Assembly: GCA_024372625.1 (NCBI GenBank)
Contig: CP099607.1
Coordinates: 310,001-374,000, forward strand
Length of the DNA stretch: 64,000 bases
Direction of reading: 5' to 3'
From: Comamonadaceae bacterium OTU4NAUVB1
Lineage (GTDB): Bacteria > Pseudomonadota > Gammaproteobacteria > Burkholderiales > Burkholderiaceae_C
In this document: positions 32,111 through 48,684 of the stretch, in pieces
Layout of the letters: each line of letters begins with the position of its first letter
Numbering within the stretch: position 1 is the first letter of the stretch
Notes under the pieces: model-generated
What the model was told of the DNA's origin: nothing
The model's database searches: none
The model's input: the letters and a program-made list of their open reading frames with translations, nothing else
Position numbers and translations under genes: made by a program

Positions 32111-32250
32111 GCGAGGTCCGATCGTCGGTCGATTGTTGAACGTGGGTTAACGATGGATTGAATCCGGAGGCGATTCTGCAGGCCTTCGCGTTCCTACAGT
32201 CACATCCGTTCCACCCCCATCCACCACCGGACCCGAAAGAGAGACAAGCC

Positions 32251-33348
32251 ATGAAGACCTACAGGATCGCGACCATCCCCGGCGACGGCATCGGCAAGGA
32301 GGTCGTGCCCGCCGGACGCGAGGTGCTCGAGGCGCTGGCCGCCGGCAGCAGCACGTTCGAGTTCGACTTCGAGGACTTCGCCTGGGGCGGCGACTGGTTC
32401 CGCGCCCACGGCGAGATGATGCCCGCCGACGGCCTGGACGCCCTGCGCGACAAGGACGCCATCCTCTTCGGCTCGGCCGGCGACCCCCACATCCCCGACC
32501 ACGTCACCCTCTGGGGCCTGCGCCTGAAGATCTGCCAGGGCTTCGACCAGTACGCCAACGTGCGTCCCACGCGCATCCTGCCGGGCATCGACGGCCCGCT
32601 CAAGCGCTGCGGCCCCGACGACCTGAACTGGGTCATCGTGCGAGAGAACTCGGAAGGCGAGTACTCCGGCGTGGGCGGCCGCGTCCACCAGGGCCACCCG
32701 ATCGAGGCCGCCTGCGACGTCTCCATGATGACCCGCGTCGGTGTCGAGCGCATCCTCCGCTACGCCTTCGAGCTGGCACAGTCGCGGCCCCGCAAGCTGC
32801 TGACCGTCGTCACCAAGAGCAACGCCCAGCGCCACGCGATGGTGATGTGGGACCAGATCGCCGGCGAGGTCGCCAGGGACTTCCCCGACGTCGCCTGGGA
32901 CAAGGAGCTGGTCGACGCGGCCACCGCGCGCATGGTCAACAAGCCCGCCACGCTCGACACCATCGTCGCGACCAACCTGCACGCGGACATCCTCTCGGAC
33001 CTGGCCGCCGCGCTGGCCGGCAGCCTGGGCATCGCGCCCACGGGCAACATCGATCCGCAGCGCCGCTACCCGAGCATGTTCGAGCCGATCCACGGCTCGG
33101 CCTTCGACATCATGGGCAAGGGCCTGGCCAACCCGGTGGGCACCTTCTGGTCGGTGGTGATGCTGCTGGAGCACCTGGGCGAGACCGAGGCCGCAAGGCA
33201 GGTCATGGCCGCCATCGAGCGCGTGACGGCCGACCCCGCGCTGCACACCGGCGACCTCGGCGGCACCGCCACCACCGCGCAGGTCACCCGCGCCGTGTGC
33301 GCCCGGCTCGCCGACGACGGCCGCACCGGGCAGCGCCAGGCCGCCTGA
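32251..33348 (+). CDS. Tartrate/D-malate dehydrogenase (decarboxylating)
   Basis: A 365-residue enzyme of the isopropylmalate/isocitrate dehydrogenase family, subtype tartrate dehydrogenase (TtuC/DmlA). It starts TYRIATIPGDGIGKEV. Substrate and Mg2+ motifs are visible: LWGLRLKICQGFDQYANVRPTR (Arg residues binding the acid), VRENSEGEYSGVGGR, VTKSNAQRH (catalytic Lys), VATNLHADILSDLAAALAGSLGIAP (metal Asp) and EPIHGSAFDIMGKG. It oxidises tartrate or D-malate with NAD+. The ATG at 32251 was chosen for family fit, though the leader is purine-rich (GAAAGAGAGA). Probably co-transcribed with the Bug gene 88 bp downstream. Confidence 0.88.
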   Translation: MKTYRIATIPGDGIGKEVVPAGREVLEALAAGSSTFEFDFEDFAWGGDWFRAHGEMMPADGLDALRDKDAILFGSAGDPHIPDHVTLWGLRLKICQGFDQYANVRPTRILPGIDGPLKRCGPDDLNWVIVRENSEGEYSGVGGRVHQGHPIEAACDVSMMTRVGVERILRYAFELAQSRPRKLLTVVTKSNAQRHAMVMWDQIAGEVARDFPDVAWDKELVDAATARMVNKPATLDTIVATNLHADILSDLAAALAGSLGIAPTGNIDPQRRYPSMFEPIHGSAFDIMGKGLANPVGTFWSVVMLLEHLGETEAARQVMAAIERVTADPALHTGDLGGTATTAQVTRAVCARLADDGRTGQRQAA

Positions 33349-33436
33349 TCGACGCGGTCCGCCGCACCCACGCGCCCATCGAGGCGGCCCCGCGTGCCGC
33401 CGGGCGCTCCCGCACCGTCCCTTCCGGAGACACACC

Positions 33437-34414
33437 ATGAAGACATCGACCCCGCGCCTGCGCCGGGCGCTGAGCGCGCTCGCCCTGACGTTCGCCACCA
33501 CGCTGGCCGCCGCCCAGGCGTTTCCCTCCAAGCCCATCACGCTGGTCGTGCCGTTCCCGCCGGGCGGTAGTTCCGACGTGCTGGCCCGCTCGCTCGGCAC
33601 CGCCCTGTCGCAGCGCCTGGGCCAGCCGGTGATCGTGGAGAGCCGGCCCGGCGCCGGCGCCACGCTCGGCGCCGACTTCGTCGCCAAGGCCCGGCCCGAC
33701 GGCCACACCCTGCTCATGGGCGCGGTGCATCACACCATCGCCACCAGCGTGTACAGGAAGCTGCCCTACGACTTCGAGACGAGCTTCGCGCCAATCACCA
33801 CCGTGGCGCTGGTGCCCAACGTGCTGGTGGTCAACGCGAAGTCGCCGGCCACCGACGTGCAGGGCCTGATCGCACTGGCCAAGGCGTCGCCGGGCCGGCT
33901 GTCCTACGGCTCCAACGGCAACGGCACGGTGCAGCACCTGATCGGCACGCGGTTCGCGCAGCAGGCCGGCGTCGCGCTGCTGCACGTGCCCTACAAGGGC
34001 AGCGCGCCGCTGACCACCGACCTGCTCGGCGGTCAGGTCGACATGTCCTTCGACACCCTCACGCCGCTGGTGCCCCACCTCGCGGGCGGCAAGCTGCGCG
34101 CCCTGGCCGTCACCACCGCCAAACGCTCCGGCGCCCTGCCCGACGTGCCGACGCTGGCCGAGTCCGGGCTGGCCGGCTTCGACCAGGGCACGTGGTTCGG
34201 CATCCTCGCCCCGGCGGCGACGCCCCGCGACATCGTCGGGAAGCTCAACGCCGAGATGGTCGCGGTCATCCAGTCGCCGGATTTCAGGAAGCGCATGGAG
34301 GAGATCGGCGCCGAGCCGGTGGCCGACACGCCGGCGCTGATGGCCGAGCGCATCCGGGACGACACCGCCCGCTACGCCAGGCTGGTCAAGGAGGCGAAGG
34401 TCGCGATCGACTGA
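33437..34414 (+). CDS. Bug/TctC-family periplasmic binding protein (next to tartrate dehydrogenase)
   Basis: A 325-residue secreted solute-binding protein with a clear signal peptide (about 1-27, ending AAAQA). Bug-family features are the first binding-loop strand PITLVVPFPPGGSSDVLAR, PGAGATLGADFVAKARPDGHTLL, YGSNGNGTVQHL, VPYKGSAPLTTDLLGGQVDMSFDT and a Lys/Asp-ended C-terminus. Bug proteins bind small carboxylates, usually for TctAB-type transporters or for signalling; no tctA or tctB gene is in this window. The position after a tartrate/D-malate dehydrogenase suggests tartrate or malate as ligand. GGAGA precedes the ATG. Confidence 0.88.
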   Translation: MKTSTPRLRRALSALALTFATTLAAAQAFPSKPITLVVPFPPGGSSDVLARSLGTALSQRLGQPVIVESRPGAGATLGADFVAKARPDGHTLLMGAVHHTIATSVYRKLPYDFETSFAPITTVALVPNVLVVNAKSPATDVQGLIALAKASPGRLSYGSNGNGTVQHLIGTRFAQQAGVALLHVPYKGSAPLTTDLLGGQVDMSFDTLTPLVPHLAGGKLRALAVTTAKRSGALPDVPTLAESGLAGFDQGTWFGILAPAATPRDIVGKLNAEMVAVIQSPDFRKRMEEIGAEPVADTPALMAERIRDDTARYARLVKEAKVAID

Positions 34415-34444: not shown

Positions 34445-35371
34445 TCACGCCGGGCCCGCGAGCGCCTCGAGGAGGTTGCGCGCCGCGCCCACGGCCATGC
34501 CGCGCAGGCCGCCGTCGGTGGTGCCGCCCACGTGCGGCGTCAGCACGACGTTGGGCATCGCCAGCCAGGGCGAGTCCGCCGCCAGCGGCTCGTCGGCGAA
34601 GCAGTCGAGGCCGAGTTGAAGTTCGTCCGCGCGCAGGCGCCGGTGCATGTCGGCCTCGTCGAACAGGCCGGCGCGCGCGGTGTTGACGACGATGGCGCCC
34701 CGGCGCAGCAGGCCCAGGCGCCGCGCGTCCAGCAGGCCCCGGGTGGCGTCGTCCAGCGGGCAGTGCAGCGAGACGATGTCGCTGGCGGCCAGCAGGTCGT
34801 CCAGTCCGGTGGCGATCGCGCCCTCGGGCAATTCGGACGCCGGCACGAAGGGATCGGCCACCAGCACCCGCATGCCGATCGCCCGCGCGAAGCGCGCCAC
34901 GCGCGCGCCGATCGCGCCGCAGCCCACCACGCCCAGCGTCGCCCCGGCGAGTTCCAGGCCCAGGTAGCCCGGCTTGTCCCAGTGGCCGTCGTGCATGCGC
35001 CGGTCCAGCCAGGCGATGCGGCGGGCGCAGGCCAGCATCAGGCCCAGCGCGTGCTCGGCGACGGCCTGGCTGTTGGAGCCGAGCGCCGCCCGCACCGCGA
35101 TGCCCAGCGCGCGCGCGGCCACCTGATCGATCGCGTCCAGCCCGACGCCGTGGCGCGAGACCACCCGCAGCCGGGGCGAGGCCGCGAGCACGCGGCGGTC
35201 GATGCGCCCGTAGCGCGCCAGGATGGCGACGGGCCGCTCGCGCTCGCACAGCGCCACCAGCGCGTCCTGGGTGAATTTGGCGCCGGTGTAGACCAGGCGG
35301 TGCGCGCGCAGGAGTTCGACGGCGTCGGGATGCAGCCGGGCTTCGGTGACGAGGATGGTGTCGGAGGTCAT
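34445..35371 (-). CDS. D-isomer-specific 2-hydroxyacid dehydrogenase (module B)
   Basis: A 308-residue NAD-dependent dehydrogenase. It has the Rossmann motif VVGCGAIGARVARF at about 149-162, DPFVPASE (the Asp that favours NADH), the catalytic Arg in VNTARAG, Glu in FADEPLAAD and His in LTPHVGGTT. It would interconvert a 2-hydroxy and a 2-oxo acid. The start ATG overlaps the stop of the SMP-30 gene by 4 bp (ATGA), so they are translationally coupled. It is the last gene of the eleven-gene minus-strand run and is a collinear paralogue of the dehydrogenase at 39383-40321. Substrate unknown. Confidence 0.88.
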   Translation of the reverse strand: MTSDTILVTEARLHPDAVELLRAHRLVYTGAKFTQDALVALCERERPVAILARYGRIDRRVLAASPRLRVVSRHGVGLDAIDQVAARALGIAVRAALGSNSQAVAEHALGLMLACARRIAWLDRRMHDGHWDKPGYLGLELAGATLGVVGCGAIGARVARFARAIGMRVLVADPFVPASELPEGAIATGLDDLLAASDIVSLHCPLDDATRGLLDARRLGLLRRGAIVVNTARAGLFDEADMHRRLRADELQLGLDCFADEPLAADSPWLAMPNVVLTPHVGGTTDGGLRGMAVGAARNLLEALAGPA

Positions 35372-36309
35372 GGCGAGGTCGGGGCGGTGCGCGCGGCGGC
35401 GCGGTCCAGCGGCAGGCCGGCGACACCGGGCTCGGCGCGCAGCACCGTGCCGTGGGTGGAATCGGTGACGTGGAGGACCTCGCGTCCGGCGCCGCCGAAG
35501 GCCAGGTTGGTGAGGGAGGCGCCGGGCGCGCCGCGCAGCACCAGTTCGGGCTCGGCGCGCGCGTTCAGCACCCAGACGCAGCCCAGTCCGGGGTTGGCCA
35601 CCAGCAGGCGGCCGTCGCGGTCGACCGCCAGACCGTCCGGCCCGCTCGGACCGTGCGAGGTGAAGAACTGGCTCACCTTGGCGACGCTGCCGTCGGCCAG
35701 CAGCGGCACGCGCCAGACGCAGTTGCCGCGCGTCACCGCCAGATACAGCACCTTCTGGTCCGGCGACAGCGCCACGCCGTTGGGACTGGGCACGTTGGCC
35801 AGCAGCAGGTCGAGCTGGCCGGAGGGACGCAGGCGGTAGAGGCGGCCGGTCGGGTCGTGCAGTCCGGTCTGGCCCTGGTCGGTGAAGTAGAGGTTGCCCG
35901 CGGCGTCGAAGACCAGGTCGTTGACGCCCTTGAAGCGCTCGCTGTTGCGGCGCTCCAGGAACGGCTCGACGCGGCCGCTGGCGATGTCCAGCCGCATCAG
36001 CCCGTGGCGGTAGTCGGTGATCAGCAGCGTGGCGTCGTCGAGCAGCTTCATGCCGTTGGGCTCGCCGTCGTACTCGGCCACCTGCGACCAGTCGCCGGCG
36101 GCATCGATGCGGAAGACGCGGCCGAAGGGGATGTCGCTCACGTAGAGGTTGCCGTGGTCGTCGGCCACCGGTCCTTCGAGGAACGAATCGGTGGGGTGGC
36201 CGCCCCGGTTGGCGCGGCTCCAGTCGCTGTGCTGGCGCTGGCGGAAGCGGTCCGGCAGGCGGGCGAAGGGTTGCAGATCGACCACGCGCGGGGGGTTCGT
36301 CAGGAACAT
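35368..36309 (-). CDS. SMP-30/gluconolactonase-family lactonase
   Basis: A 313-residue beta-propeller protein. Family signatures are FLEGPVADDHGNLYVSDIP (metal Glu), YDGEPNGMKLL (metal Asn), RFKGVNDLVFDAAGNLYFTDQG, PNGVALSPDQKVLYLAVT and SGPDGLAVDRDGRLLVANPG (Asp). Such enzymes use Ca2+ or Zn2+ to open sugar lactones or related esters. No signal peptide is seen. It lies between the second amidohydrolase (21 bp) and the dehydrogenase (4-bp overlap), so two lactonase-type enzymes and a hydroxyacid dehydrogenase appear in sequence, consistent with lactone opening followed by oxidation. Confidence 0.87.
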   Translation of the reverse strand: MFLTNPPRVVDLQPFARLPDRFRQRQHSDWSRANRGGHPTDSFLEGPVADDHGNLYVSDIPFGRVFRIDAAGDWSQVAEYDGEPNGMKLLDDATLLITDYRHGLMRLDIASGRVEPFLERRNSERFKGVNDLVFDAAGNLYFTDQGQTGLHDPTGRLYRLRPSGQLDLLLANVPSPNGVALSPDQKVLYLAVTRGNCVWRVPLLADGSVAKVSQFFTSHGPSGPDGLAVDRDGRLLVANPGLGCVWVLNARAEPELVLRGAPGASLTNLAFGGAGREVLHVTDSTHGTVLRAEPGVAGLPLDRAAARTAPTSP

Positions 36310-36330
36310 GGGAACGGTCGCCCGGAGGCG

Positions 36331-37245
36331 TCAGGATGAGGTGGGAAGCATGTCGAAACCGTAGAGCACGGCGGGGTTGTCGACCAGGATCGCGTCCATC
36401 CGCCGATCGTCGCCGCACCAGTCGCGCAGCAGGTCGACCAGGTCGGCGTCGTCGACGCTGCCGGCCGGCTCGGTGGTGTGCGGCCAGTCGCTGCCCCAGA
36501 CCAGGCGCTGCGGCGCCGCGCGCAGCAGGGCGCGGCCGAGCGGGGCCCGGTCGCCGTAGGCGGGCGCGCCCTCGGCCGAGCCCATGTAGGCGCCCGAGAG
36601 CTTGACCCAGGTGCGGCCGGCGTCCAGCAGCCGGCGCAGCGTGGCGAAGGCCTCGCCGTCGATGCCCGGCCGGGGGTCGATGCGCCCCAGGTGGTCGACC
36701 ACCAGCGGCAGCGGCAGGCGTGCCAGCACGGGTTCGAGCGCGACCAGCTGCGCCGCCGACGCGAACACCTGGAGGTGCCAGCCCAGCGGCGCCGCCTTGG
36801 CCGCCAGGGTCCGCAGCATCGCCGGCGTGGTGGTGCCCCAGGACTGCGGCGAGACGAAGTTGACCCGCAGGCCGCGCACGCCCCGCCCCGCCAGCCGCGT
36901 CAGCTCGGCCGCGTCCACGTCGTGCGCGACCACCGCGACGCCGCGCGCCCGCGGGCCCAGGGCGGCCAGGGCGTCGAGCGTGCAGCGGTTGTCGGTGCCG
37001 TAGGTCGAGGGCGTCACCACCACCGCCCGGCCGGTGCCCAGGCGCCGCTGCAGCAGGCGGTAGGCGGCCACGTCGGCCAGCGGCGGCGTGCGCGGCCAGT
37101 GCGCGGACGGCGCGAAGCGCGGGTCGAAGACGTGCATGTGGCAGTCGCAGGCGTCCGCCGGCAACGCGCGCGACGGCCGCCGGACGCCGGCGGAGTGCGG
37201 GACGGGCGCGGCATCGGGCGCGGGATGGGTCGCGGCGTGGGTCAT
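36331..37245 (-). CDS. TIM-barrel amidohydrolase, LigI/PDC-hydrolase-like (module B)
   Basis: A 304-residue metal-dependent hydrolase of the amidohydrolase superfamily. Visible active-site elements are DCHMHVFD (the HxH of strand 1), TPSTYGTDNR, VRGLRVNFVSP, LVVDHLGRID (the His of a later strand) and WGSDWPHT (the Asp of strand 8). These match the group around 2-pyrone-4,6-dicarboxylate hydrolase, 4-sulfomuconolactone hydrolase and D-galactarolactone isomerase, so a lactone of a dicarboxylic or sugar acid is the likely substrate. The ATG at 37245 was chosen over an upstream GTG at 37275. Paralogue of the protein at 42084-42992. Confidence 0.85.
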   Translation of the reverse strand: MTHAATHPAPDAAPVPHSAGVRRPSRALPADACDCHMHVFDPRFAPSAHWPRTPPLADVAAYRLLQRRLGTGRAVVVTPSTYGTDNRCTLDALAALGPRARGVAVVAHDVDAAELTRLAGRGVRGLRVNFVSPQSWGTTTPAMLRTLAAKAAPLGWHLQVFASAAQLVALEPVLARLPLPLVVDHLGRIDPRPGIDGEAFATLRRLLDAGRTWVKLSGAYMGSAEGAPAYGDRAPLGRALLRAAPQRLVWGSDWPHTTEPAGSVDDADLVDLLRDWCGDDRRMDAILVDNPAVLYGFDMLPTSS

Positions 37246-37297
37246 GGCGTCGGTCGTGGTGTCGGTCCTGGGCACGGCGGGATCGCGGCCGCCGCGC

Positions 37298-38254
37298 TCA
37301 GTCGACCTTGATGTCGCCCTTGCGGACCACGTCCGACCACTTGGCGGCCTCCTTCTGCAGGAACGCTGCGAACTCGGCCGGCGTGCTGCCCACGGGCTGC
37401 GCGCCCATCTCGCCCAGGCGCGTTCTGAGTTCGTCGTCGCGCAGCGATTCGACCACCGCCTGGTGCAGACGCCGCACCACCGGCTCGGGGGTGCCGGCCG
37501 GCAGCAGCAGGCCGTTCCACTCGTAGGCCTCGTAGCCGGGCAGCACGGTCTCCGCGACGGTGGGCACCTCCGCCAGCAGGGGCGAGCGCTTGGGCGAGGA
37601 GATCGCCAACGCGCGCAGCTTGCCCGAGGCCACCAGCGGGTTGCTCGCCGCCAGGGTGCCGAACATGAAGTCGACCTGTCCGCCCATCACGTCGGAGATC
37701 GCCGGACCGCCGCTCTTGTAGGGCACGTGCAGCAGGTCCAGCCCCAGGCCCTGGCGGTAGAGCTCGGCGGCCAGGCGCTGCACCGTGCCGCTGCCGCCGG
37801 AGGCGAAGGTGAGCTTGCCGGGTTGGGCCTTGGCGCGCGCGATCAGGTCCTGCTGGTCGCGGATCGGCGAGTCCTTGCGCACGATCAGCACGTTGGGCGA
37901 GAGCGAGACCAGCGCCAGCGGCTGGAAGCTCTTGTCGTTGAACGGCAGCCTGGCGTAGAGCGCCGGGTTGATGGAGAACGGCGTGGCGTCGTAGAGCACG
38001 GTGTAGCCGTCGGCCGGGGCGCGCGCCACGAAGGCCTCGCCGATGGTGCCGCTGGCCCCGGGCTTGTTGTCGACGATCACGCTGGTGCCCAGCCGGGCGC
38101 CCATGCGCACCGCCAGCTGGCGGGCGATGGCGTCGGCCGCGCCGCCGGGGGCGTAGGGCACGACCAGGGTGACGGTGCGTTCGGGGAACGCCGCCTGGGC
38201 GGCGCCGGCGGCCACGGCGCAGGCCAGCAGCAGGGTCTTGAGGAGCTTTTTCAT
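37298..38254 (-). CDS. Bug/TctC-family periplasmic binding protein
   Basis: A 318-residue secreted binding protein: signal peptide MKKLLKTLLLACAVAAGAAQA, then VTLVVPYAPGGAADAIAR, DNKPGASGTIGEAFVARAPADGYT, FASGGSGTVQRLA, VPYKSGGPAISDVMGGQVDFMFGT and a C-terminal KGDIKVD. The ATG at 38254 was chosen because it gives a textbook signal peptide. Bug proteins bind small carboxylates such as dicarboxylates, amino acids or aromatic acids in the periplasm. It sits between another Bug gene (53 bp) and the second amidohydrolase. No transport partner is encoded here. Confidence 0.88.
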   Translation of the reverse strand: MKKLLKTLLLACAVAAGAAQAAFPERTVTLVVPYAPGGAADAIARQLAVRMGARLGTSVIVDNKPGASGTIGEAFVARAPADGYTVLYDATPFSINPALYARLPFNDKSFQPLALVSLSPNVLIVRKDSPIRDQQDLIARAKAQPGKLTFASGGSGTVQRLAAELYRQGLGLDLLHVPYKSGGPAISDVMGGQVDFMFGTLAASNPLVASGKLRALAISSPKRSPLLAEVPTVAETVLPGYEAYEWNGLLLPAGTPEPVVRRLHQAVVESLRDDELRTRLGEMGAQPVGSTPAEFAAFLQKEAAKWSDVVRKGDIKVD

Positions 38255-38307
38255 GGGGTGTCCCGGAACAGGTTGGAAGGCGGATGGGTTCGGGGTGGCG
38301 GCGGCGT

Positions 38308-39288
38308 TCACTCGACCTTGAGGTCGAGTTCCCGCGCGGTGCGCGTGGCGCCCTTGACCTCGGTGTCGAGCTGGCGGGCGAAGGCGTCACCGCACGTGCC
38401 GCTCGCCTGCATGCCCAGGCCGCGCAGCTTCTCGGCGGTCGCCGGGGCGGCGGCGAAGTCCTTCGCCACGCGTGTCAGACGCTCGACCACGTCGGCCGGC
38501 GTGCCCGCCGGCGCCAGCAGGCCGTACCAGGCATCGGCCGAATAGCCCTTGACGCCCGACTCCTCGAAGGTCGGCACCTGTGGCAGCAGGGCCGAGCGCC
38601 GCGGCGCGGCCACCGCCAGCGCGCGCAGCTTGCCGGTCTGCACCTGCGGCAGCACCGAGCCCAGCGTGGCGAAGGAGGCGTCGACCTGACCGCCCATCAG
38701 GTCGGTCACCGCCTGGGCGGCGCCCTTGTAGGGGATGTGGTTCATCCGCGTGCCGGTCAGCCGGGTGAACTGCTCGCTGGCGAAGTGGCCGCTGCTCCCG
38801 CTGCCGGGCGTCGCGTAGGTGCGCTCCCCGGGACGCGCGCGCACGTCGCGCAGGAACTCGTCCAGGGTCTTCGCCGGCATCGACGGCCCGACCACCAGCA
38901 CCGTCGGGCTGATCGCCAGCGTGCAGATCGGCGCGAAGGAACGCAGCGCGTCGAACTTGACGCGCGCGGCGTAGAGCGCCGGGATCATGGTGTGGTTGGT
39001 GGCGCCCAGCAGCAGCGTGCGGCCGTCGGCCGGCGCCGCGGCCACCGCCTCGGCCGCCAGGATGGTGTTGGCGCCGGGCTTGTTGTCGACGATCACCGGC
39101 TGCCCGAGCGCGCGTCCGGCGAAGTCCGCGAAGGCGCGCGCCACCACGTCGGTGGGTCCGCCGGCGGAGAAGCCCACCACCAGGCGGATGGGCTGGGTCG
39201 ACGCCGCCGGCTGGGCGGACGCGAGGGTGGCGATCACGGCCGTGCCGGCGGCGATCAGCGCGGGTCGGATCCGATGGCGGATATGCAT
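38308..39288 (-). CDS. Bug/TctC-family periplasmic binding protein
   Basis: A 326-residue secreted binding protein with a signal peptide (about 1-25, ending ASAQ). Bug motifs: IRLVVGFSAGGPTDVVAR, DNKPGANTILAAEAVAAAPADGRT, YATPGSGSSGHFA, IPYKGAAQAVTDLMGGQVDASFAT and TRTARELDLKVE at the C-terminus. It differs from its three operon paralogues by an extra Cys near the C-terminus (SGTCGDAF) and shares only family-level motifs, so it probably binds a different or modified ligand. It follows the dehydrogenase gene by about 94 bp and precedes the next Bug gene by 53 bp. Confidence 0.88.
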   Translation of the reverse strand: MHIRHRIRPALIAAGTAVIATLASAQPAASTQPIRLVVGFSAGGPTDVVARAFADFAGRALGQPVIVDNKPGANTILAAEAVAAAPADGRTLLLGATNHTMIPALYAARVKFDALRSFAPICTLAISPTVLVVGPSMPAKTLDEFLRDVRARPGERTYATPGSGSSGHFASEQFTRLTGTRMNHIPYKGAAQAVTDLMGGQVDASFATLGSVLPQVQTGKLRALAVAAPRRSALLPQVPTFEESGVKGYSADAWYGLLAPAGTPADVVERLTRVAKDFAAAPATAEKLRGLGMQASGTCGDAFARQLDTEVKGATRTARELDLKVE

Positions 39289-39382
39289 GGCTTGTCTCCT
39301 GGGAAAGGCGGAAGGCCGCCCGTGCCGCTCTGCGGCAGGCTCGGGGCGGACCGGAGGCGTGGAAGCGTGGCGGCGCGGGGTG

Positions 39383-40321
39383 TCAGGCGGCGGCGCTGGA
39401 CGTCGCGCCCTGGAGCACCGAGCGCACGTTGCGCGCGGCGGCGACGCCCATGTTCACGTAGGCGTCGCCCGTCACGCCGCCGATGTGCGGGCTCAGGACG
39501 AAGCCCGGCTGGCCCTTGAAGACGTTGTCCGCCGCCAGCGGCTCGACCGCGAAGCTGTCGAGCCCGGCGCTCATCACCTGGCCCGAACGCACCGCCGCGA
39601 GCAGCGCGTCCTCGTCGATCAGGCCGCCGCGCGCGGTGTTCACCACGATCACGCCGCGCCTGCATTTCGCCAGCGTGCCGGCGTCGAGCAGCCGGCGGTT
39701 CTCCTCGGTCAGCGGGCAGTGCAGCGAGATCGCGTCGGCCTCGCGCCAGATGGTCTCCAGGTCGACGCCGTGCACGTACTCCGGCAGGTCCTTCGCGAAC
39801 GGATCGAAGCCGATCACGCGCATGCCCAGGGCATCGGCCATGCGCGCGAACTTCAGGCCGATGGCGCCCAGGCCCACCAGGCCGACCGTGCGGCCGCCGA
39901 GCTCGACGCTCTTGTGGGTGGCCTTGTCCCAGTGGCCGGCGTGCATGCGCGCGTCCAGCGCCACCACCGACTTGGCGCAGGCCAGCAGCAGCGCCAGCGC
40001 CTGTTCGGCGACGGCTGCGGCGTTGGCGCCCACGGCGGCGAGCACCGCGATGCCGCGTTCCCTGGCGGCGACCTTGTCGATGGTGTCGGTGCCGCTGCCG
40101 TGCTTGGCGATCACCCTGAGCGACGGCGCCGCGTCCATGGCGGCGGCGCCGACGCCGCTGTAGCGCACGATGATCGCGACCGGGTCGTGCCGGCGGCACA
40201 GGTCGACGATGTCGTCCGTGCTCGGCGTCCTGCCGGCATAGACCATCTCGAAGCCTTCGAGCAGGGCCAGGGCCTGCGGCGCGAGGTCGGCGCCGGTGAC
40301 CAGGACGGTGCCGCCGCTCAC
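39383..40321 (-). CDS. D-isomer-specific 2-hydroxyacid dehydrogenase (module A)
   Basis: A 312-residue NAD-dependent dehydrogenase with GLVGLGAIGLKFARM (Rossmann), GFDPFAKDLPE, and catalytic Arg in VNTARGG, Glu in FAVEPLAAD and His in LSPHIGGVT. The GTG at 40321 was taken as start: it overlaps the TGA of the upstream RraA-type gene (GTGA) and gives SGGTVLVTGADL, aligned with the start of the paralogue at 34445-35371. Translational coupling to an RraA-type aldolase gene suggests that the two act on successive intermediates, for example oxidation of a hydroxyacid to the oxoacid that is then cleaved. Substrate unknown. Confidence 0.87.
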   Translation of the reverse strand: MSGGTVLVTGADLAPQALALLEGFEMVYAGRTPSTDDIVDLCRRHDPVAIIVRYSGVGAAAMDAAPSLRVIAKHGSGTDTIDKVAARERGIAVLAAVGANAAAVAEQALALLLACAKSVVALDARMHAGHWDKATHKSVELGGRTVGLVGLGAIGLKFARMADALGMRVIGFDPFAKDLPEYVHGVDLETIWREADAISLHCPLTEENRRLLDAGTLAKCRRGVIVVNTARGGLIDEDALLAAVRSGQVMSAGLDSFAVEPLAADNVFKGQPGFVLSPHIGGVTGDAYVNMGVAAARNVRSVLQGATSSAAA

Positions 40322-41010
40322 AGCGTCTCCCCTTCCTTGAGCACGCCGGCCGAGCGCAGGGCGGCGCCGAGCCACTTGGCGGCGGTGTCGCCTTCCTTGA
40401 TGGCGGCGATGCGCGCGGCCTCGTCCTTGACCTTCTTCTCGGCCAGGGGCAGCAGCGCGGCGAGCTTCTCGCGCTCGACCACCACCACGCCGTCGCCGTC
40501 GGCGATGACGAAATCGCCCGGGTGCACCGTCACGCCGCCGACCGTCACCGGATGGCCGATGCGCCCGCCGACGTTCTTGGTCGGGCCGTTGGGGTTGGTG
40601 CCCACGGAGAAGACCGGGTAGTCCATCTCGTCGATCTCCAGGCTGTCGCGGCAGGCGCCGTCCATCACCACGCCGGCGATGCCGAGCTTCTGGCAGGCCG
40701 TCATCATGATGGTGCCCATCAGCGCGGAGGTCTGGTCGCCCTTGCCGTCGATGACCAGCACGTCGCCCGGCTTGGCCAGCGCGATGGCCGCGTGGATCAT
40801 CAGGTTGTCGCCCGGGCGCACCTCGACCGTGAAGGCGGTGCCGGCGAGCTTCATGCGCGGACGCAGCGCCTGGATGCGCCCGTGCATCGCGCCGCGCCGG
40901 CCGGCGACGTCGGCCAGGATGGCGGGTTGCAGCTGCGCGGCCTGCGCCACGAGGGCGGCGGGCACGCGTTCGAAGTCACGGACGATGTCGGGGAGTTGGG
41001 AGGCGGACAT
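40318..41010 (-). CDS. RraA-family protein (HMG/oxaloacetate aldolase type)
   Basis: A 230-residue protein of the RraA/4-hydroxy-4-methyl-2-oxoglutarate aldolase family. The glycine-rich region PGDVLVIDGKGDQTSALMG and GIAGVVMDGACRD (Arg-Asp pair binding Mg2+ and pyruvate enolate) match the class II pyruvate aldolases of this fold, rather than the RNase E inhibitor alone. Also visible are YPVFSVGTNPNGPTKNVGG and PGDFVIADGDGVVVV. ATG at 41010 follows a purine-rich leader. In this catabolic operon an aldolase or oxaloacetate-decarboxylase role is more likely than RNase regulation. Coupled by 4-bp overlap to the dehydrogenase gene. Confidence 0.87.
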   Translation of the reverse strand: MSASQLPDIVRDFERVPAALVAQAAQLQPAILADVAGRRGAMHGRIQALRPRMKLAGTAFTVEVRPGDNLMIHAAIALAKPGDVLVIDGKGDQTSALMGTIMMTACQKLGIAGVVMDGACRDSLEIDEMDYPVFSVGTNPNGPTKNVGGRIGHPVTVGGVTVHPGDFVIADGDGVVVVEREKLAALLPLAEKKVKDEAARIAAIKEGDTAAKWLGAALRSAGVLKEGETL

Positions 41011-41091
41011 GGGATGGCTTTCGGTCGATGAGGGAAGGAAGAAGAGAAGGAAAGAACGGAGGTCGGGTGGTGGCGCAGGCACGTGGCGCGC

Positions 41092-42087
41092 TCAGTCCGC
41101 CTTGATGTCGGCGTCCTTGATGACGCGGGCCCACTTGGCCAGGTCGGACTTCTGGGTGTCGGCGAGCTGCGCGGGCGTGCCACCGACCAGCGAGACGCCC
41201 AGCTTGTCGGCCATGGCGACCACTTCGGCGTCCTTCAGGATGCGCACGATGTCGGTGTTCAGACGCTGCACCACGGCGGCGGGCGTGCCGGCCGGCGCAT
41301 AGGCCGCCTGCCATTGCTCGACGACGAAGTCCTTGAAGCCGGCCTCCCCCATCGTGGGCGTGGCGGCCATGGACTTCAGGCGGGATGCCGACGTCACGGC
41401 CAGCGCGCGCAGCCGGCCGCTCTGGATGTGCGGCAACGCCGCCGCCACGGGAGCGAACATGAAGGTGGCGTGGCCGGCGAGCACGTCCTGGATGGCCGGG
41501 GTGTCGCCCTTGTAGGGCACGTGGGTCATGCGGGTGCCGGTCTGCAGGCGCAGCAGTTCGCCCTGCATCTGCAGGATGGTGCCGCTGCCGCCGGAAGCGA
41601 ACGAGATCGCACCGGGCTCGGCCTTGGCGGCGCCCACCAGATCGGCGACGGTCTTGAAAGGCTGCGCGTTGCCGACGATCAGCACGTGGGGGATGGTGCC
41701 GATCAGGACGATCGGCTCGAACGCCTTGACCGGGTCGTAGGGCATCTTCGCCAGCAGGCTCGGCACGATGGCCTGGGGCCCGATCGAGGTGCCCAGCAAG
41801 GTATGGCCGTCCGGCGCGGCCTTGGCGACGAACGCCGAGCCGATGACGCCGGTGGCGCCGGCCTTGTTGTCGACGATCACCGTGGCGCCCAGCGACGTGC
41901 CCAGGCGCAACGCGATCGCGCGGCCGAGGATGTCGGTGGTGCCACCCGGCGGATAGGGAACGACCCAGGTGATGGGCCGGTCGCCCGGCCAGGCGCCCTG
42001 CGCGGCGGCGGGCACGCCGGTCAGTCCGGTCGTGGCGAACAGCGAGAGGGCCAGGAGGCCGGCGATGCGGCGGCGCGACGTGTTCAT
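41092..42087 (-). CDS. Bug/TctC-family periplasmic binding protein
   Basis: A 331-residue secreted binding protein; signal peptide about 1-30 (basic MNTSRRR, hydrophobic run, AAAQ). Bug motifs: ITWVVPYPPGGTTDILGR, DNKAGATGVIGSAFVAKAAPDGHT, FASGGSGTILQM, VPYKGDTPAIQDVLAGHATFMF and C-terminal KDADIKAD. The ATG overlaps the stop of the upstream amidohydrolase by 4 bp (ATGA), so a periplasmic receptor is translationally coupled to a cytoplasmic enzyme, which suggests they handle the same compound. Confidence 0.9.
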   Translation of the reverse strand: MNTSRRRIAGLLALSLFATTGLTGVPAAAQGAWPGDRPITWVVPYPPGGTTDILGRAIALRLGTSLGATVIVDNKAGATGVIGSAFVAKAAPDGHTLLGTSIGPQAIVPSLLAKMPYDPVKAFEPIVLIGTIPHVLIVGNAQPFKTVADLVGAAKAEPGAISFASGGSGTILQMQGELLRLQTGTRMTHVPYKGDTPAIQDVLAGHATFMFAPVAAALPHIQSGRLRALAVTSASRLKSMAATPTMGEAGFKDFVVEQWQAAYAPAGTPAAVVQRLNTDIVRILKDAEVVAMADKLGVSLVGGTPAQLADTQKSDLAKWARVIKDADIKAD

Positions 42088-42992
42088 GCGCGTTCCTCGA
42101 GAGAAGTGGATTCGAAGCCGTAGAGCACGGCGGGGTTGTCGACCAGCACGCGCCGCAGTCCGGCCGCGTCGGCCGTCCATTCGGCCAGCAGCGCCATCAG
42201 CCGGGCGTCGTCGGGCAGGACCTGGTGGCCCGCGGTGGCCGAGGCGTGCGGCCAGTCGCTGCCCCAGACGGTGCGTTCGGGCGCCGCAGCGAGGTAGTCG
42301 CGCGCCAGCGAGCCCACGTCGCCGTAGTCGGGGGGTCCCGCCTCGCTCACGATGTAGGCGCCCGAGAGCTTGACCCAGGCGCGGCCCGCGTCGAGCAGCC
42401 GCAGGACCAGCCGGTGCGCCGGATGCCGGTACGCCAGCGAAGGCGCGATGCGACCGAAATGGTCGAACACCACGTCCACCGGCAGGAGCGACAGGCGTGG
42501 CGCCAGGTCGGCCAGCACGTCCGGCGGCGCCAGCAACTGCAGGTGCCAACCCAGCGGGGCGATGCGCGCGGCCAGGGTGTCGAGCTGCGCGACCGACCCT
42601 GTCGTTCCCAGCGAGAGGTTCAAGCGGACGCCGCGCACGCCTCCGGCATGCAGCGCCTGGAGTTCGGCGTCGTCGATGTCTGGGCCGATCACGGCGACGC
42701 CGCGTGCAGCGCCGCCGAAGTCCGCCAGCGCCGCGCGCATCGGCCGGTTGTCGGTGCCGTAGGTCGAGGGCGTCACGAAGACGACGCGTCCGGTCCCGGT
42801 ACGCCGCTGCAGCCGGCGGTAATCGGCCACGGTCGCGTCGGGCGGCGTCAGGCGCGCCCCGGGCACGGCGGGAAAGCGCGCGTCGTAGACATGCACGTGG
42901 CAGTCGCAGGCCAGGCCCGGCACGTCCACCCGGGCGCGGCCCTGCCCCGCCGAGAACGGCGCCGTGGCCGTTTCGTCGTCTGTCGTCGTCAT
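42084..42992 (-). CDS. TIM-barrel amidohydrolase, LigI/PDC-hydrolase-like (module A)
   Basis: A 302-residue metal-dependent hydrolase. Active-site elements in order: DCHVHVYDARF (HxH), TPSTYGTDNRPM, VRGVRLNLSLG, VVFDHFGRIAP (His) and WGSDWPHASA (Asp), ending VDNPAVLYGF as in its paralogue at 36331-37245. The group includes lactone hydrolases of protocatechuate and sugar-acid pathways. It is coupled to the following Bug gene by a 4-bp overlap. Compared with the paralogue the loop after the HxH strand and the region around 220-230 differ most, so the two enzymes may have related but distinct substrates. Confidence 0.86.
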   Translation of the reverse strand: MTTTDDETATAPFSAGQGRARVDVPGLACDCHVHVYDARFPAVPGARLTPPDATVADYRRLQRRTGTGRVVFVTPSTYGTDNRPMRAALADFGGAARGVAVIGPDIDDAELQALHAGGVRGVRLNLSLGTTGSVAQLDTLAARIAPLGWHLQLLAPPDVLADLAPRLSLLPVDVVFDHFGRIAPSLAYRHPAHRLVLRLLDAGRAWVKLSGAYIVSEAGPPDYGDVGSLARDYLAAAPERTVWGSDWPHASATAGHQVLPDDARLMALLAEWTADAAGLRRVLVDNPAVLYGFESTSLEERA

Positions 42993-43041
42993 CGCGCGTT
43001 TCCGGGCGTCGGGTGTCGGGATGTCGGAGTGACGGCCGCGC

Positions 43042-44052
43042 TCAGTCGACCTTCGCGCCCGATTCCTTCACGACCTTGCCCCAGCGCACGATGTCGTCGC
43101 GGATCAGGGTGGCGAAGCGCTCGGGCGTGCCGCCCAGGGACTCGGCGCCCTGGCTGGCCAGCTTCTTCTTCACCTCGGGGTCCTGCACGGCCTGGTTGAA
43201 GGCGGCGTTCAGCTTGGACACCACGTCCGGGGGCAAGCCGTCCGGGCCGGCGATGCCGAACCAGGTCACCGCCTCGAAACCCTTGTAGCCCGACTCGGCC
43301 ACCGTCGGCACGGCCGGCAGGTCGGTCGTGCGCTGGGCCGAGGTGACGGCGATCGGGCGCATCTTGCCGCTGCGGATGTAGCCGATGAGCGTGGGCACCG
43401 AGGACATGTACATCTGGATCTGGCCGCCGATGAGGTCGGTCGAACCCTGCGCGGCGCCCTTGTAGGGCACGTGCGTGAACTTCACGCCGGCGGTCTTCTG
43501 CAGCAGCTCGGTGGCCAGGTGGGCGACGGTGCCGCTGCCCGAGCTGGCGTAGTTCAGCGTCTCGGGCTTGGCCTTGGCGGCGGCGATGACGTCGGCCAGC
43601 GTCTTGTAGGGCGAGTCGGCCGCGACCACCAGCACCAGCGGGGCGGTGGCCACCAGCGTCACCGGCGACAGGTCCTTCTGCGGGTCGTAGGGCAGCTTGG
43701 GGTAGAGCGTCGGGTTGATCGCCAGGTTGCTGGTCTGTCCCAGCACCAGCGTGTAGCCGTCGGCCGCCGCCTTGGCCGCCGCGTCGACGCCCAGGTTGCC
43801 GCCGGAGCCCGGCTTGTTGTCGATGACGATCGACCAGCCGTTGCTGGTGGCGACCTTGTTGGCCACCTCGCGGGCGATCAGGTCGGTGCCGCCGCCGGCG
43901 GGGAACGGCACGACCAGCCGGATCGGCCGCGAGGGGTAGTTCGCCTGCGCCAGGGCCGGCGCGGTGCCCAGGAGCGACCCGGTGGCGATCAGGCCGAGGG
44001 CGGCCAGGGCGAAGCGACGCGAAGCGCCGCCGGTGGTGCGGAAGGATGTCAT
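43042..44052 (-). CDS. Bug/TctC-family periplasmic binding protein
   Basis: A 336-residue secreted binding protein; the signal peptide starts MTSFRTTGGASRRFALAALG (a Tat-like RR may be coincidental) and ends around AQA. Bug motifs: IRLVVPFPAGGGTDLIAR, DNKPGSGGNLGVDAAAKAAADGYT, YASSGSGTVAHLA, VPYKGAAQGSTDLIGGQIQMYM and C-terminal KESGAKVD. ATG at 44052 was chosen for the signal peptide. It is the first structural gene after the LysR gene, with 113 bp between them that include an AT-rich stretch (44135-44160), probably the main promoter of the gene run. Confidence 0.88.
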   Translation of the reverse strand: MTSFRTTGGASRRFALAALGLIATGSLLGTAPALAQANYPSRPIRLVVPFPAGGGTDLIAREVANKVATSNGWSIVIDNKPGSGGNLGVDAAAKAAADGYTLVLGQTSNLAINPTLYPKLPYDPQKDLSPVTLVATAPLVLVVAADSPYKTLADVIAAAKAKPETLNYASSGSGTVAHLATELLQKTAGVKFTHVPYKGAAQGSTDLIGGQIQMYMSSVPTLIGYIRSGKMRPIAVTSAQRTTDLPAVPTVAESGYKGFEAVTWFGIAGPDGLPPDVVSKLNAAFNQAVQDPEVKKKLASQGAESLGGTPERFATLIRDDIVRWGKVVKESGAKVD

Positions 44053-44165
44053 CTCACTTGTCTCCAGTTCGTGGCGCCCGTCCACGGAGGGGACGATGCG
44101 TTCGGTGAATGGCAAGTATTCACAGGACCACACCCCGGGTCCAATCGATTATTTTTCGCAATCCA

Positions 44166-45083
44166 TCAATCCGGCTTGGGGTTTCCGACGGCCTGCGACG
44201 CCGCGTGGCGCGCCAGCAGTTCGATCAGGCGCCGCGCCGCCGGTGGCACGTAGCCGTTGTCGCGGTGGGTGACCACCATGCGCCGCCGCATGGCGATGCC
44301 CTCGATGGGCACCTCGCGCAGCACGGCGCCGGACCGCCCGGCCTGCAGGTGCAGGCGCGAGATGAAGCTGAGCAGCCCGGTCTCCCCGATCAGCTCCGGC
44401 AGCATGATCAGCATCGAGCTCTCCACCTGCACCACCGGGCGCGGCAGGTGCTGGCGGTCGAAGGTCTGGTCGAGCCAGTCGCGCGTCGGCGCGCCGGCGG
44501 GCTGCAGCACCCAGCGGTACGTCGCCAGGTCCGCCAGCGTCGGCGCGGGCCGTCCGAACACCTCGTGCGTCTCGGCCGCCGCCACGACGATCAGGTCCTC
44601 GGCCAGGTAGTGCGAGACGAAGCCGGCTTCGGGCGTGCCCTCGGTGCCCACCATCAGGTCGATCTCGCCGGCGCGCAACAGGGGCTTCAGGACATCGACC
44701 AGCGCGACGGTGGTGCGCAGCGTCACGCCGGGCGCCTCGCCGATCAGGTCGCGCGCGGCCGGCGGCAGCAGGAACTGCGCGGCCGTCGGCACGATGCCCA
44801 CCTTGAGCAGCCCCGACAGCCCGCGACCGATGTCGCCGATCTCGCGCCGAGCGCTCTCGATGTCGAAGCGCGTGCGCTGCGCCCACTTGAGCAGGGCGTG
44901 GCCGGCGGCCGTCAGGCGGATGCCGCGCCCGCTCTTCTCGAACAGCGCGGCGCCGCAGGCGGCCTCCAGCCGGTGCACGCAGCTCGTCAGGGCCGGCTGG
45001 GTGCGATGCAGCCGCTCCGAGGCACGGCCCAGGTGCTCCAGCTCGGCGATCACTTCGAAATACTGGAGGTCGCGCAGGTCCAA
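44166..45083 (-). CDS. LysR-family regulator heading the Bug/lactonase gene run
   Basis: A 305-residue LysR regulator with N-terminal helix-turn-helix (LGRASERLHRTQPALTSCVHRLEAACG) and an effector domain with the usual DLMVGTEGTPEAGF and RHAASQ-type end. Only a TTG start fits: it gives the standard LysR opening MDLRDLQYFEVIAEL, and GAGG lies 9 nt upstream; no ATG exists near. It is read in the same direction as, and just upstream of, ten catabolic and receptor genes, so it is the likely regulator of the run. The inducer is probably the acid handled by these genes, which is unknown. Confidence 0.8.
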   Translation of the reverse strand: MDLRDLQYFEVIAELEHLGRASERLHRTQPALTSCVHRLEAACGAALFEKSGRGIRLTAAGHALLKWAQRTRFDIESARREIGDIGRGLSGLLKVGIVPTAAQFLLPPAARDLIGEAPGVTLRTTVALVDVLKPLLRAGEIDLMVGTEGTPEAGFVSHYLAEDLIVVAAAETHEVFGRPAPTLADLATYRWVLQPAGAPTRDWLDQTFDRQHLPRPVVQVESSMLIMLPELIGETGLLSFISRLHLQAGRSGAVLREVPIEGIAMRRRMVVTHRDNGYVPPAARRLIELLARHAASQAVGNPKPD

Positions 45084-45853: not shown

Positions 45854-46801
45854 TCAGCGAGCCCAGCGCAGCACCAGCGGATCGAGCCGCCGGGCCGCGT
45901 CCAGCAGGCCGGCGCGGACCTCGGGGCGCAGCGCGGGCCAGGGCGCGCGGGGCAGCTCGCAGTCGATCACGCCGCCCTCCTTCATCAGCGCCTTGGCGGC
46001 CAGGAAGCCGGCCTGCCGGTTCTCGTAATTGATCAGCGGCAGCCAGCGCGTGTACTGCGCCACGGCTTCCTCGCGGTCCCCGCCCGCGTAGGCGTCCATG
46101 ATCCGGCGGATGCCGTCGGGAAAACCGCCACCGGTCATGGCGCCGGTCGCGCCCGCGTCCAGGTCGGCCAGCAGCGTGATGGCTTCCTCGCCGTCCCACG
46201 GCCCCTCGATGGCCTCGCCGCCCGCCTCGATCAGCTCGCGCAGCTTGGAGGCGGCGCCCGCCGTCTCGATCTTGAAGTAGCGCACCTGCTCGATCTCGCG
46301 CGCCATGCGGGCGAGGAAGGCCGCCGACAGCGGCGTGCCCGCGGCCGGCGCGTCCTGCACCATGACCGGGATGCCGATGGCGTCGGAGACGCCGGCGTAG
46401 AACTCGAAGACCTTGGCCTCGCTCACCCGGAAGGTGGCGCCGTGGTAGGGCGGCATCACCATCACCATGGCCGCGCCCAGGTCCTGCGCGCGGCGGCTGC
46501 GCTCGGCGCACACCCGGGTGCTGAAGTGCGTGGTGGTGACGATCACCGGCACGCGGCCGGCGACGTGCTCGAGGGCCACGCGGGTCAGCACCTCGCGGTC
46601 CTCGTCCGACAGCAGGAACTGCTCGGAGAAGTTCGCCAGGATGCACAGGCCGGTCGAGCCGGCGTCGATCATGAAGTCCAGGCAGCGCCTCTGGCTCGCC
46701 AGGTCGAGCCCGCCGGCTTCGTCGAAGGTGGTCGGCACGACCGGGAACACGCCCTTGAAGCGGGGCTGGCTGCGCGAGGGCGACGGGCTGAAGGACGGCA
46801 T
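45854..46801 (-). CDS. DapA-family 2-keto-3-deoxy-sugar-acid dehydratase/aldolase (L-KDA dehydratase-like)
   Basis: A 315-residue class I (Schiff-base) lyase of the dihydrodipicolinate synthase family. The active Lys is in RYFKIETAG and the Tyr in MVMPPYHGA; FPVVPTTFDEAGGLD and GSTGLCILANFSEQ form the substrate pocket start. Next to an IlvD-type sugar-acid dehydratase and a sugar importer, the likely role is L-2-keto-3-deoxyarabonate dehydratase, giving 2-ketoglutarate semialdehyde; an aldolase acting on a keto-deoxy acid is the alternative. It lies 63 bp after the dehydratase gene in the same direction and ends the sugar operon. Confidence 0.82.
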   Translation of the reverse strand: MPSFSPSPSRSQPRFKGVFPVVPTTFDEAGGLDLASQRRCLDFMIDAGSTGLCILANFSEQFLLSDEDREVLTRVALEHVAGRVPVIVTTTHFSTRVCAERSRRAQDLGAAMVMVMPPYHGATFRVSEAKVFEFYAGVSDAIGIPVMVQDAPAAGTPLSAAFLARMAREIEQVRYFKIETAGAASKLRELIEAGGEAIEGPWDGEEAITLLADLDAGATGAMTGGGFPDGIRRIMDAYAGGDREEAVAQYTRWLPLINYENRQAGFLAAKALMKEGGVIDCELPRAPWPALRPEVRAGLLDAARRLDPLVLRWAR

Positions 46802-46864
46802 GGAGGGCTTCTTTCTCTCTTTCGGGAATTCGGAATCGATTCGATGTGGTGCGGTGCGGTGCGC

Positions 46865-48604: not shown

Positions 48605-48684
48605 GGACGGACGGGGCCTGGTTGGAGGGACGCGGGATCGCGGTCGGCAAGGAAAGGGACGGACCGGGCCGGCCGGGCGGCCCG

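Follow-up and report, generated by a model that had tools for sequence, protein, structure and literature searches.

The closest described relatives of the locus treated here each share part of its gene set. The 2-pyrone-4,6-dicarboxylate (PDC) pathway of protocatechuate 4,5-cleavage, whose gene set we take to be LigI, LigU, LigJ and LigK, includes both an amidohydrolase of COG3618 type and a 4-hydroxy-2-oxo acid aldolase of RraA fold, while the L-ascorbate pathway of Ralstonia eutropha H16 reportedly brings gluconolactonase-family and amidohydrolase-family lactonases together. RraA-family enzymes include the 4-hydroxy-4-methyl-2-oxoglutarate/4-carboxy-4-hydroxy-2-oxoadipate (HMG/CHA) aldolase 3NOJ and FlDet, a 2-keto-3-deoxy-D-glucarate dehydratase/decarboxylase that is described as acting on a 2-oxo dicarboxylate and thus offers a family precedent in sugar-acid breakdown (PMC8563752). 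Orphan Bug receptors, belonging to an expanded family and having no local TctAB, are described for Bordetella, Cupriavidus and Rhodoplanes (PMC5812351, PMC11452294, PMC5994714). Here we analyse a run of eleven genes on the minus strand at 34445-45083 of a 64,000-nucleotide stretch of Comamonadaceae bacterium OTU4NAUVB1 (contig CP099607.1, positions 310,001 to 374,000; hereafter the window). Judged from sequence and gene order, the cluster is modular: a constant core of RraA and a 2-hydroxyacid dehydrogenase, usually with an SMP-30-type lactonase, carries optional entry cassettes made of a hydrolase and a Bug receptor.

The eleven genes are co-directional, with a LysR gene first and ten behind it in the order lysR1, bugD, amhB, bugC, rraA, hadhB, bugB, bugA, amhA, smp30 and hadhA. 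This is the layout that an earlier note on this DNA had claimed, and the families that it named are borne out by Pfam, all eleven products lying well above the cut-offs (TctC four times, Amidohydro_2 twice, SGL, RraA-like, 2-Hacid_dh twice, and LysR). The three 4-bp overlaps that it reported, amhB/bugC at 42084-42087, rraA/hadhB at 40318-40321 and smp30/hadhA at 35368-35371, are all real; a fourth, bugB/bugA, arises only with a GTG start of bugA. With the starts chosen here the widest intergenic gap, between lysR1 and bugD, is 113 bp. Among the listed matches in the open-access PMC literature we found no description of this gene set, nor did the earlier note know of a characterised pathway that contains it.

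The recurrence of the run was followed in two samples. The first consists of 80 named-genome loci, the best 80 of at least 563 confirmed, picked by RraA similarity, so that its counts describe close relatives (mostly Comamonadaceae, Alcaligenaceae and Burkholderiaceae, plus Marinobacterium); several loci lie near contig ends, and genes were labelled by the top-scoring window protein in tblastn, a Bug label at 28-50% identity meaning just "a Bug". The second is a separate genus survey of 61 genomes, the window's own included. Directly behind rraA (40318-41010) stands hadhB (39383-40321; Pfam 2-Hacid_dh, 175.5 and 69.8 bits) in 73 of the 80 loci, which we call core loci, and in 70 of these 73 the start codon permits the 4-bp overlap seen in the window, the count taking the start nearest the rraA stop so that single cases may be chance. 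All 39 hadhB copies of at least 60% identity in the genus survey, from 37 genomes, adjoin rraA, and another species of the same genus (L108) has all eleven genes in identical order at identities of 56-84%. Because the full order returns in this species and every one of the 39 genus copies keeps its neighbour, the run is more than a chance arrangement. A semi-constant member of the core is smp30 (35368-36309; SMP-30/gluconolactonase type, Pfam SGL 141.3 bits), found at most 8 kb downstream of hadhB in 56 of the 73 core loci. In the genus, 24 of 27 smp30 copies of at least 65% identity lie within 7 kb of hadhB; the three remote copies are on contigs other than that of hadhB (G084 and G071) or in a genome that has no hadhB (G022), and the 11 weaker smp30 matches all lie away from hadhB. 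Residues E45, N130, N177 and D225 of smp30, presumably the Glu/Asn/Asn/Asp metal site of SMP-30, are conserved in at least 97% of 49 sequences; here and below, sequences with stops or of less than 80% length were left out of the conservation sets.

Around this core, hydrolase and receptor genes travel as pairs. Cassette 1 is amhB-bugC (amhB at 42084-42992, an Amidohydro_2 hydrolase of COG3618 type, Pfam 154.9 bits; bugC at 41092-42087, Pfam TctC 217.7 bits), which mostly lies between bugD and rraA; in the core loci amhB, at 57% identity or more, is followed by bugC in 24 of 25 cases, and 14 of 15 amhB copies of at least 60% in the genus survey lie within 4 kb of rraA. Cassette 2, bugA-amhA, stands directly before smp30 (bugA at 37298-38254, Pfam TctC 232.4 bits; amhA at 36331-37275, a second Amidohydro_2 hydrolase, Pfam 173.2 bits, 54% identical to amhB): a bugA orthologue precedes amhA of at least 60% identity in 23 of 25 cases, and the remaining two amhA copies have a weaker Bug match in front. 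For bugA we chose the ATG at 38254, judged by eye to begin a signal-peptide-like sequence, within a GTG open reading frame that reaches 38311. Cassette 3, found in relatives only, is a PF04199 "cyclase" hydrolase followed by a Bug gene (15 of 17), and cassette 4 joins a Bug gene to a more distant amhB relative (40-57% identity), following bugB in 6 of 8 cases. On the 80-locus map bugB itself (38308-39288; Pfam TctC 235 bits) is present in some relatives and absent in others. Cassettes can also be displaced, to a place after smp30 (L043), to the opposite strand (L044) or to about 8 kb from rraA-hadhB (L111, probably the same record as L066). The last gene of the run, hadhA (34445-35371; a second D-2-hydroxyacid dehydrogenase, Pfam 180.7 bits, 49% identical to hadhB), was seen at this position only in the window and L108 (73%) and is the best match at no place across the 80 loci; L107 carries a hadhA orthologue (65%) together with another RraA (38%) and a Bug.

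Both amidohydrolases keep the LigI residues H31, H33, H180 and D248, which we take to be the catalytic histidines and aspartate. The closest solved structures to amhB are 4MUP and LigI itself (4D8L), amhA matches 4D8L with an E-value of 6.7e-39, and the catalytic aspartate of amhB is kept in 24 of 25 sequences (asparagine in L078). The positions of LigI R130 and R217, presumably the PDC-binding arginines, are not arginine in either enzyme (G129 and I214 in amhB), so that "LigI-like", as the earlier note called these proteins, holds for family and catalytic residues and fails at these two positions. In place of the tautomerase LigU and the hydratase LigJ the run has a 2-hydroxyacid dehydrogenase and SMP-30; neither LigU nor LigJ occurs in the set of eleven genes typed by Pfam, to which that search was confined. 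RraA, too, scores below the cut-offs of the LigK-type NCBIfam models (129.9 against 304.5 and 152.6 against 179 bits). We reject the PDC pathway on account of the two arginines and of the absence of LigU and LigJ from the run, and by sequence PDC is unlikely to be a substrate. The R. eutropha L-ascorbate pathway is said to use a benzilic-acid rearrangement enzyme and a PdxA-family decarboxylase, with no RraA and no 2-hydroxyacid dehydrogenase, unlike the present run.

The window RraA (RraA-fold, of class II pyruvate aldolase/oxaloacetate decarboxylase type; Pfam RraA-like 163.2 bits) shares its sequence family with 3NOJ and keeps that enzyme's R40, N71, H75, R123, D124 and K147 as R38, N69, H73, R121, D122 and K145, all conserved in at least 97% of 82 sequences; it differs in having proline for T145 and in its genomic partner, here a 2-hydroxyacid dehydrogenase or an aminotransferase. 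An identity as RNase E regulator can be discarded in view of these conserved aldolase residues and of scores under the cut-offs of the NCBIfam equivalog (92.1 against 136 bits) and of TIGR02998 (47.8 against 241.25). In HadhB, R231, E260 and H279 are conserved in at least 97% of 72 sequences, presumably as the Arg-Glu-His triad of D-2-hydroxyacid dehydrogenases, and Pfam finds an NAD-binding domain. For the characterised aldolase, the N71A and K147A exchanges are reported to lower kcat more than 1000-fold, and N71 and K147 are proposed there to bind the substrate carboxylate (PMC5065237). FlDet, compared by its description and not by sequence, differs in organism group, partners and reported chemistry (PMC8563752).

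The order of reactions is suggested by a replacement of the dehydrogenase. Seven of the 80 loci have no hadhB, and in six of them (L036, L046, L048, L051, L063 and L085; the exception is L062) an RraA 71-81% identical to that of the window stands third in an aminotransferase-Bug-RraA unit with a divergent gene, LysR-like by eye, alongside. Dehydrogenation of a 2-hydroxy acid and transamination of a 2-amino acid both yield a 2-oxo acid. In these six loci the place of the dehydrogenase next to this RraA is taken by an aminotransferase, from which we conclude that the substrate of RraA is most likely a 2-oxo acid produced by an oxidative step, cleavage of that acid being the simplest reading. This lends independent support to the order, oxidation and then cleavage, that the earlier note had proposed; the same replacement makes it unlikely that HadhB is a purely downstream reductase. 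In the RraA tree the six aminotransferase-linked proteins nest inside the dehydrogenase group. The aminotransferase of L085 is nearest to aspartate aminotransferase A (6F77), and the three-gene unit is likely to be a complete route for the breakdown of a hydroxy-amino acid or an aspartate-like compound. Besides, an acetolactate synthase gene, above its NCBIfam cut-off, follows rraA-hadhB-MFS-amidohydrolase (MFS, major facilitator superfamily) in a Variovorax (L066:12271-13938), where it would fit a pyruvate product.

The membrane partner of the Bug receptors probably lies elsewhere. In the host genome (4.66 Mb in five contigs, the window being on contig C5) the TctC/Bug family has 98 matches, one of which falls short of the family cut-off and one of which is a fragment; the Bug gene at C2:26161-26958 contains an in-frame TAG. 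The genome's two TctA genes are both on contig C3, so that no TctA accompanies the Bugs of the run, which are orphan in this local sense. The earlier note's "no tctA/tctB" accordingly stands for TctA on the whole of C5, and for TctB among the eleven genes by Pfam, a genome-wide TctB search not having been made. At least one Bug gene is present in 71 of the 73 core loci, and the two that have none, L066 and L075, include an MFS gene within their run, that of L066 resembling HpaX and galactonate transporters at scores below those models' cut-offs. TctA is present in two of the 73. In L034 a complete TctC-TctB-TctA set stands directly before rraA-hadhB. Marinobacterium profundum (L087) combines two Bug genes with two TctA genes, each of the latter next to a TctB-like gene, and also has a DctP-type receptor of a tripartite ATP-independent periplasmic (TRAP) transporter with DctQ- and DctM-like genes behind it, the names TctB, DctQ and DctM resting on sequence appearance; L067 also has a DctM-like match. 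Since relatives thus exchange the Bug for a complete transporter or join it with one (MFS, TRAP or TctCBA), the orphan Bugs of the cluster most likely serve uptake. The host TctA at C3:2569251-2570516 is 61% identical to that of L034, the other 45%, and by this comparison the former is the best candidate for the membrane partner. As to ligands, the solved structures closest to bugD by sequence are a terephthalate-binding protein and Bug27.

We propose a mechanism in which several extracellular lactone- or ester-like carboxylates would each be caught by one Bug receptor, imported most likely via a shared TctBA encoded elsewhere in the genome, and opened in the cytoplasm by cognate hydrolases, amhB for the bugC ligand, amhA for the bugA ligand and SMP-30 for the core. 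The products would be a common or closely related 2-hydroxy acid, which HadhB with NAD(P)+ would oxidise to a 2-oxo acid, and RraA would then split the latter by a metal-dependent retro-aldol reaction (or beta-decarboxylation) into pyruvate and a second product; hadhA may be a species-level addition that acts on a related acid or reduces a product. The reaction direction, the substrate class and the sharing of TctBA are the parts of this scheme that we infer, and the families, active-site residues, gene order, cassette linkage and exchanges of transporter and regulator are features of the sequences themselves. Saccharinic-acid, pantolactone, 2-hydroxy-butyrolactone and other compounds are conceivable substrates between which we could not discriminate. 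We regard a modular peripheral catabolic cluster of this kind, running from Bug-caught carboxylates through cognate hydrolases and HadhB to RraA cleavage, as somewhat the more probable account of the run. The scheme of the earlier note is thereby partly supported: its outline of Bug uptake, hydrolytic opening, oxidation and C-C cleavage by RraA is most likely right, a fixed sequence of eleven steps is not what the relatives show, the amidohydrolase-Bug cassettes being optional, and its substrate (a dicarboxylic or sugar-acid lactone) and single-pathway reading are unproven.

The most serious competitor concerns the chemistry of RraA, which might be an oxaloacetate-type decarboxylase: an ester or lactone would then release an acid resembling malate or tartrate, HadhB would oxidise this to the beta-oxo acid, and RraA would decarboxylate the latter to pyruvate or hydroxypyruvate; hadhA may reduce the hydroxypyruvate. 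The closest solved RraA homologue is indeed named aldolase/oxaloacetate decarboxylase, the enzyme standing in for HadhB is nearest to aspartate aminotransferase A, whose plain product is oxaloacetate, and the adjoining genes include one for tartrate dehydrogenase accompanied by a Bug of its own. That gene, ttuC, is however found in none of the 80 loci, malate and tartrate themselves need no lactonases, and the retained N71 and K147 matter for 4-hydroxy-2-oxo acid cleavage in the enzyme characterised in PMC5065237, so that we hold a decarboxylase to be possible and rather unlikely. Although the sequences do not distinguish aldolase from decarboxylase chemistry, we favour aldol cleavage because of the lactonases and the two retained residues.

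A different role has been discussed for orphan Bugs in PMC5812351 and PMC5994714, as extracytoplasmic sensors that signal substrates to a regulator while unrelated transporters take them up, and the 98 Bug matches against two TctA in this genome would suit it; it is improbable here, given that an MFS gene replaces the Bug in L066 and L075, that the Bug of L034 comes with its own TctBA and that Pfam finds no two-component sensor among the eleven genes. Slighter still is the chance that small, separate catabolic units for unrelated substrates have come to stand together here by accident. The cassettes are optional and occasionally apart or reoriented, as in L043, L044 and L111, yet the same cassettes return to the same positions across many genera, L108 repeats the whole eleven-gene order, and the core pair could overlap by 4 bp in 70 of 73 loci.

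Several observations sit less easily with a modular cluster built on an oxidation-cleavage core. The core can occur without the lactonase gene: smp30 is missing within 8 kb downstream in 17 of the 73 core loci, 11 of which have the full 10 kb and 6 a shorter stretch, and a Pantoea agglomerans plasmid (L117) has RraA-HADH (HADH, hydroxyacid dehydrogenase) with neither SMP-30 nor a transporter beside them in the stretch shown, from which it follows that a lactonase is not obligatory beside the core. Partners also come apart, 12 of 51 rraA copies of at least 60% in the genus having no hadhB and 3 of 26 bugA copies of at least 60% no adjoining amhA. It is from family membership that the amidohydrolases take their putative lactonase role. 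The RraA tree prefers two switches between dehydrogenase and aminotransferase, of which the well-supported branches force just one. Finally, the description of FlDet as a dehydratase/decarboxylase means that chemistry within the RraA family can differ (PMC8563752).

Regulators are exchanged among the core loci as transporters are: a divergent IclR match is present in 59 of 73, six of these matches being confirmed by Pfam, a lysR1 orthologue (above 60% identity) in nine, and five are undecided. According to PMC8222616, an association with IclR regulators and aromatic metabolism is frequent for a number of gene families, COG3618 and COG3181 among them; COG0684 (RraA) does not appear in the main text of that paper. 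In the window, lysR1 (44166-45083; TTG start, Pfam HTH_1 and LysR_substrate) is adjoined by bugD (43042-44052; Pfam TctC 279.9 bits), whose start we place at the ATG at 44052 within a GTG open reading frame extending to 44133. Between them, overlapping the lysR1 stop codon, an alignment of the window with seven relatives reveals a conserved minus-strand footprint at 44138-44170, ATTGATGGATTGCGAAAAATAATCGATTGGACC, with the core ATCGATT...AATCGATTGGAC conserved in all of them. In L034, L066 and L075, where lysR1 is divergent, a similar block with GTCCA...TGGAC ends lies between it and the gene that opens the cluster. The footprint is a probable LysR1 operator region, and LysR1 would control the run from this site. 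The lysR1-bugD gap, scanned for inverted repeats, contains a single short and imperfect pair, which lies outside the footprint. A pattern scan of the run gave no promoter-like sites; the three terminator-like sites that it gave are all on the plus strand, and their number is about that of shuffled sequence (mean 2.6). Rfam and tRNA scans of the window gave no matches.

Homologues of hadhB bear generic names only, among the best 120 of 5823. More distant, plasmid-borne HADH relatives comprise 76 records, 51 of them from Pantoea, and eight places were opened. Plasmids of Paraburkholderia (L119), Caballeronia (L120) and Pantoea dispersa (L121) carry RraA-HADH-SMP-30-MFS, further cases of the transporter exchange that speaks for an uptake role of the Bugs; an Enterobacter plasmid (L118) has the HADH behind a gene annotated as diguanylate cyclase, and Variovorax SRS16 (L114), Diaphorobacter (L115) and Comamonas antarctica (L116) have Bug versions. 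The annotation "diguanylate cyclase" recurs in the Pantoea plasmids at L117:7300-7992 and L121:7294-7986, where Pfam finds only RraA-like; L118 carries the same label at the equivalent place, the Pfam check having covered L117 and L121. The version on the 175,731-bp C. antarctica plasmid, which is typed conjugative, reads LysR-Bug-RraA-dehydrogenase-cyclase-Bug-Bug and is flanked on both sides by IS3-family transposases. In the plasmid of Diaphorobacter sp. HDW4B a minimal IclR/Bug-RraA-dehydrogenase unit is convergent with a 2-methylcitrate cycle operon.

Two neighbouring groups of genes in the window can be set apart from the run. At 31190-34414 a divergent LysR gene, a tartrate dehydrogenase gene (ttuC, above the TIGR02089 cut-off) and its own Bug gene (bugE) form a separate small unit of tartrate/malate type; ttuC and bugE, which are on the plus strand, were rejected as members of the pathway, ttuC being found in none of the 80 loci. 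At 45854-50759, upstream of lysR1, lie a gene of the dihydrodipicolinate synthase (DHDPS) family, a dehydratase gene of the IlvD/Edd family (above the PRK06131 cut-off and below that for L-arabinonate dehydratase) and two BPD_transp_2 permease genes, which perhaps constitute a pentonate pathway. This sugar-acid operon with its ATP-binding cassette permeases was likewise rejected as part of the run, neither dhdps nor ilvD occurring in any of the 80 loci.

How about a hundred or more Bugs are matched with few membrane partners in some bacteria is an open question. Sharing of membrane parts has, according to a review, no evidence yet in its support, and sensing has been put forward as a role (PMC5812351, PMC5994714); in Rhodoplanes, receptor genes of tripartite tricarboxylate transporters are described as linked to genes of TRAP and ABC transporters (PMC5994714), and Bug69 with nadC is described as a single case of an enzyme-linked orphan Bug (PMC11452294). 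Unlike the orphan Bugs of Bordetella, Cupriavidus and Rhodoplanes, those of the present cluster are tied by type to hydrolase types across genera around one core, and in some relatives this core comes with complete transporters. The parts are known, and the recurrence of Bug-hydrolase cassettes on one core, with exchanges of transporters and feeder enzymes, looks new. We tentatively speculate, well short of conviction, that each orphan Bug evolves together with a cognate hydrolase that opens a ring or an ester, that every such plug-in pair adds a new compound to a fixed core of oxidation and cleavage, and that one permissive TctBA, here probably that with the TctA at C3:2569251-2570516, serves all the Bugs. 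If so, this would be a general reason for the expansion of Bugs in Burkholderiales, and the neighbouring hydrolase would reveal the ligand of each Bug. The natural exchanges of a Bug for an MFS transporter, or its union with TRAP or a full TctCBA, together with the recurring Bug-hydrolase pairs let ligand, hydrolase and transporter be tested jointly. Altogether, the locus points to an RraA-based catabolic route in Comamonadaceae, Alcaligenaceae, Burkholderiaceae and, with another transporter, Pantoea, of which one copy is on a plasmid typed as conjugative.

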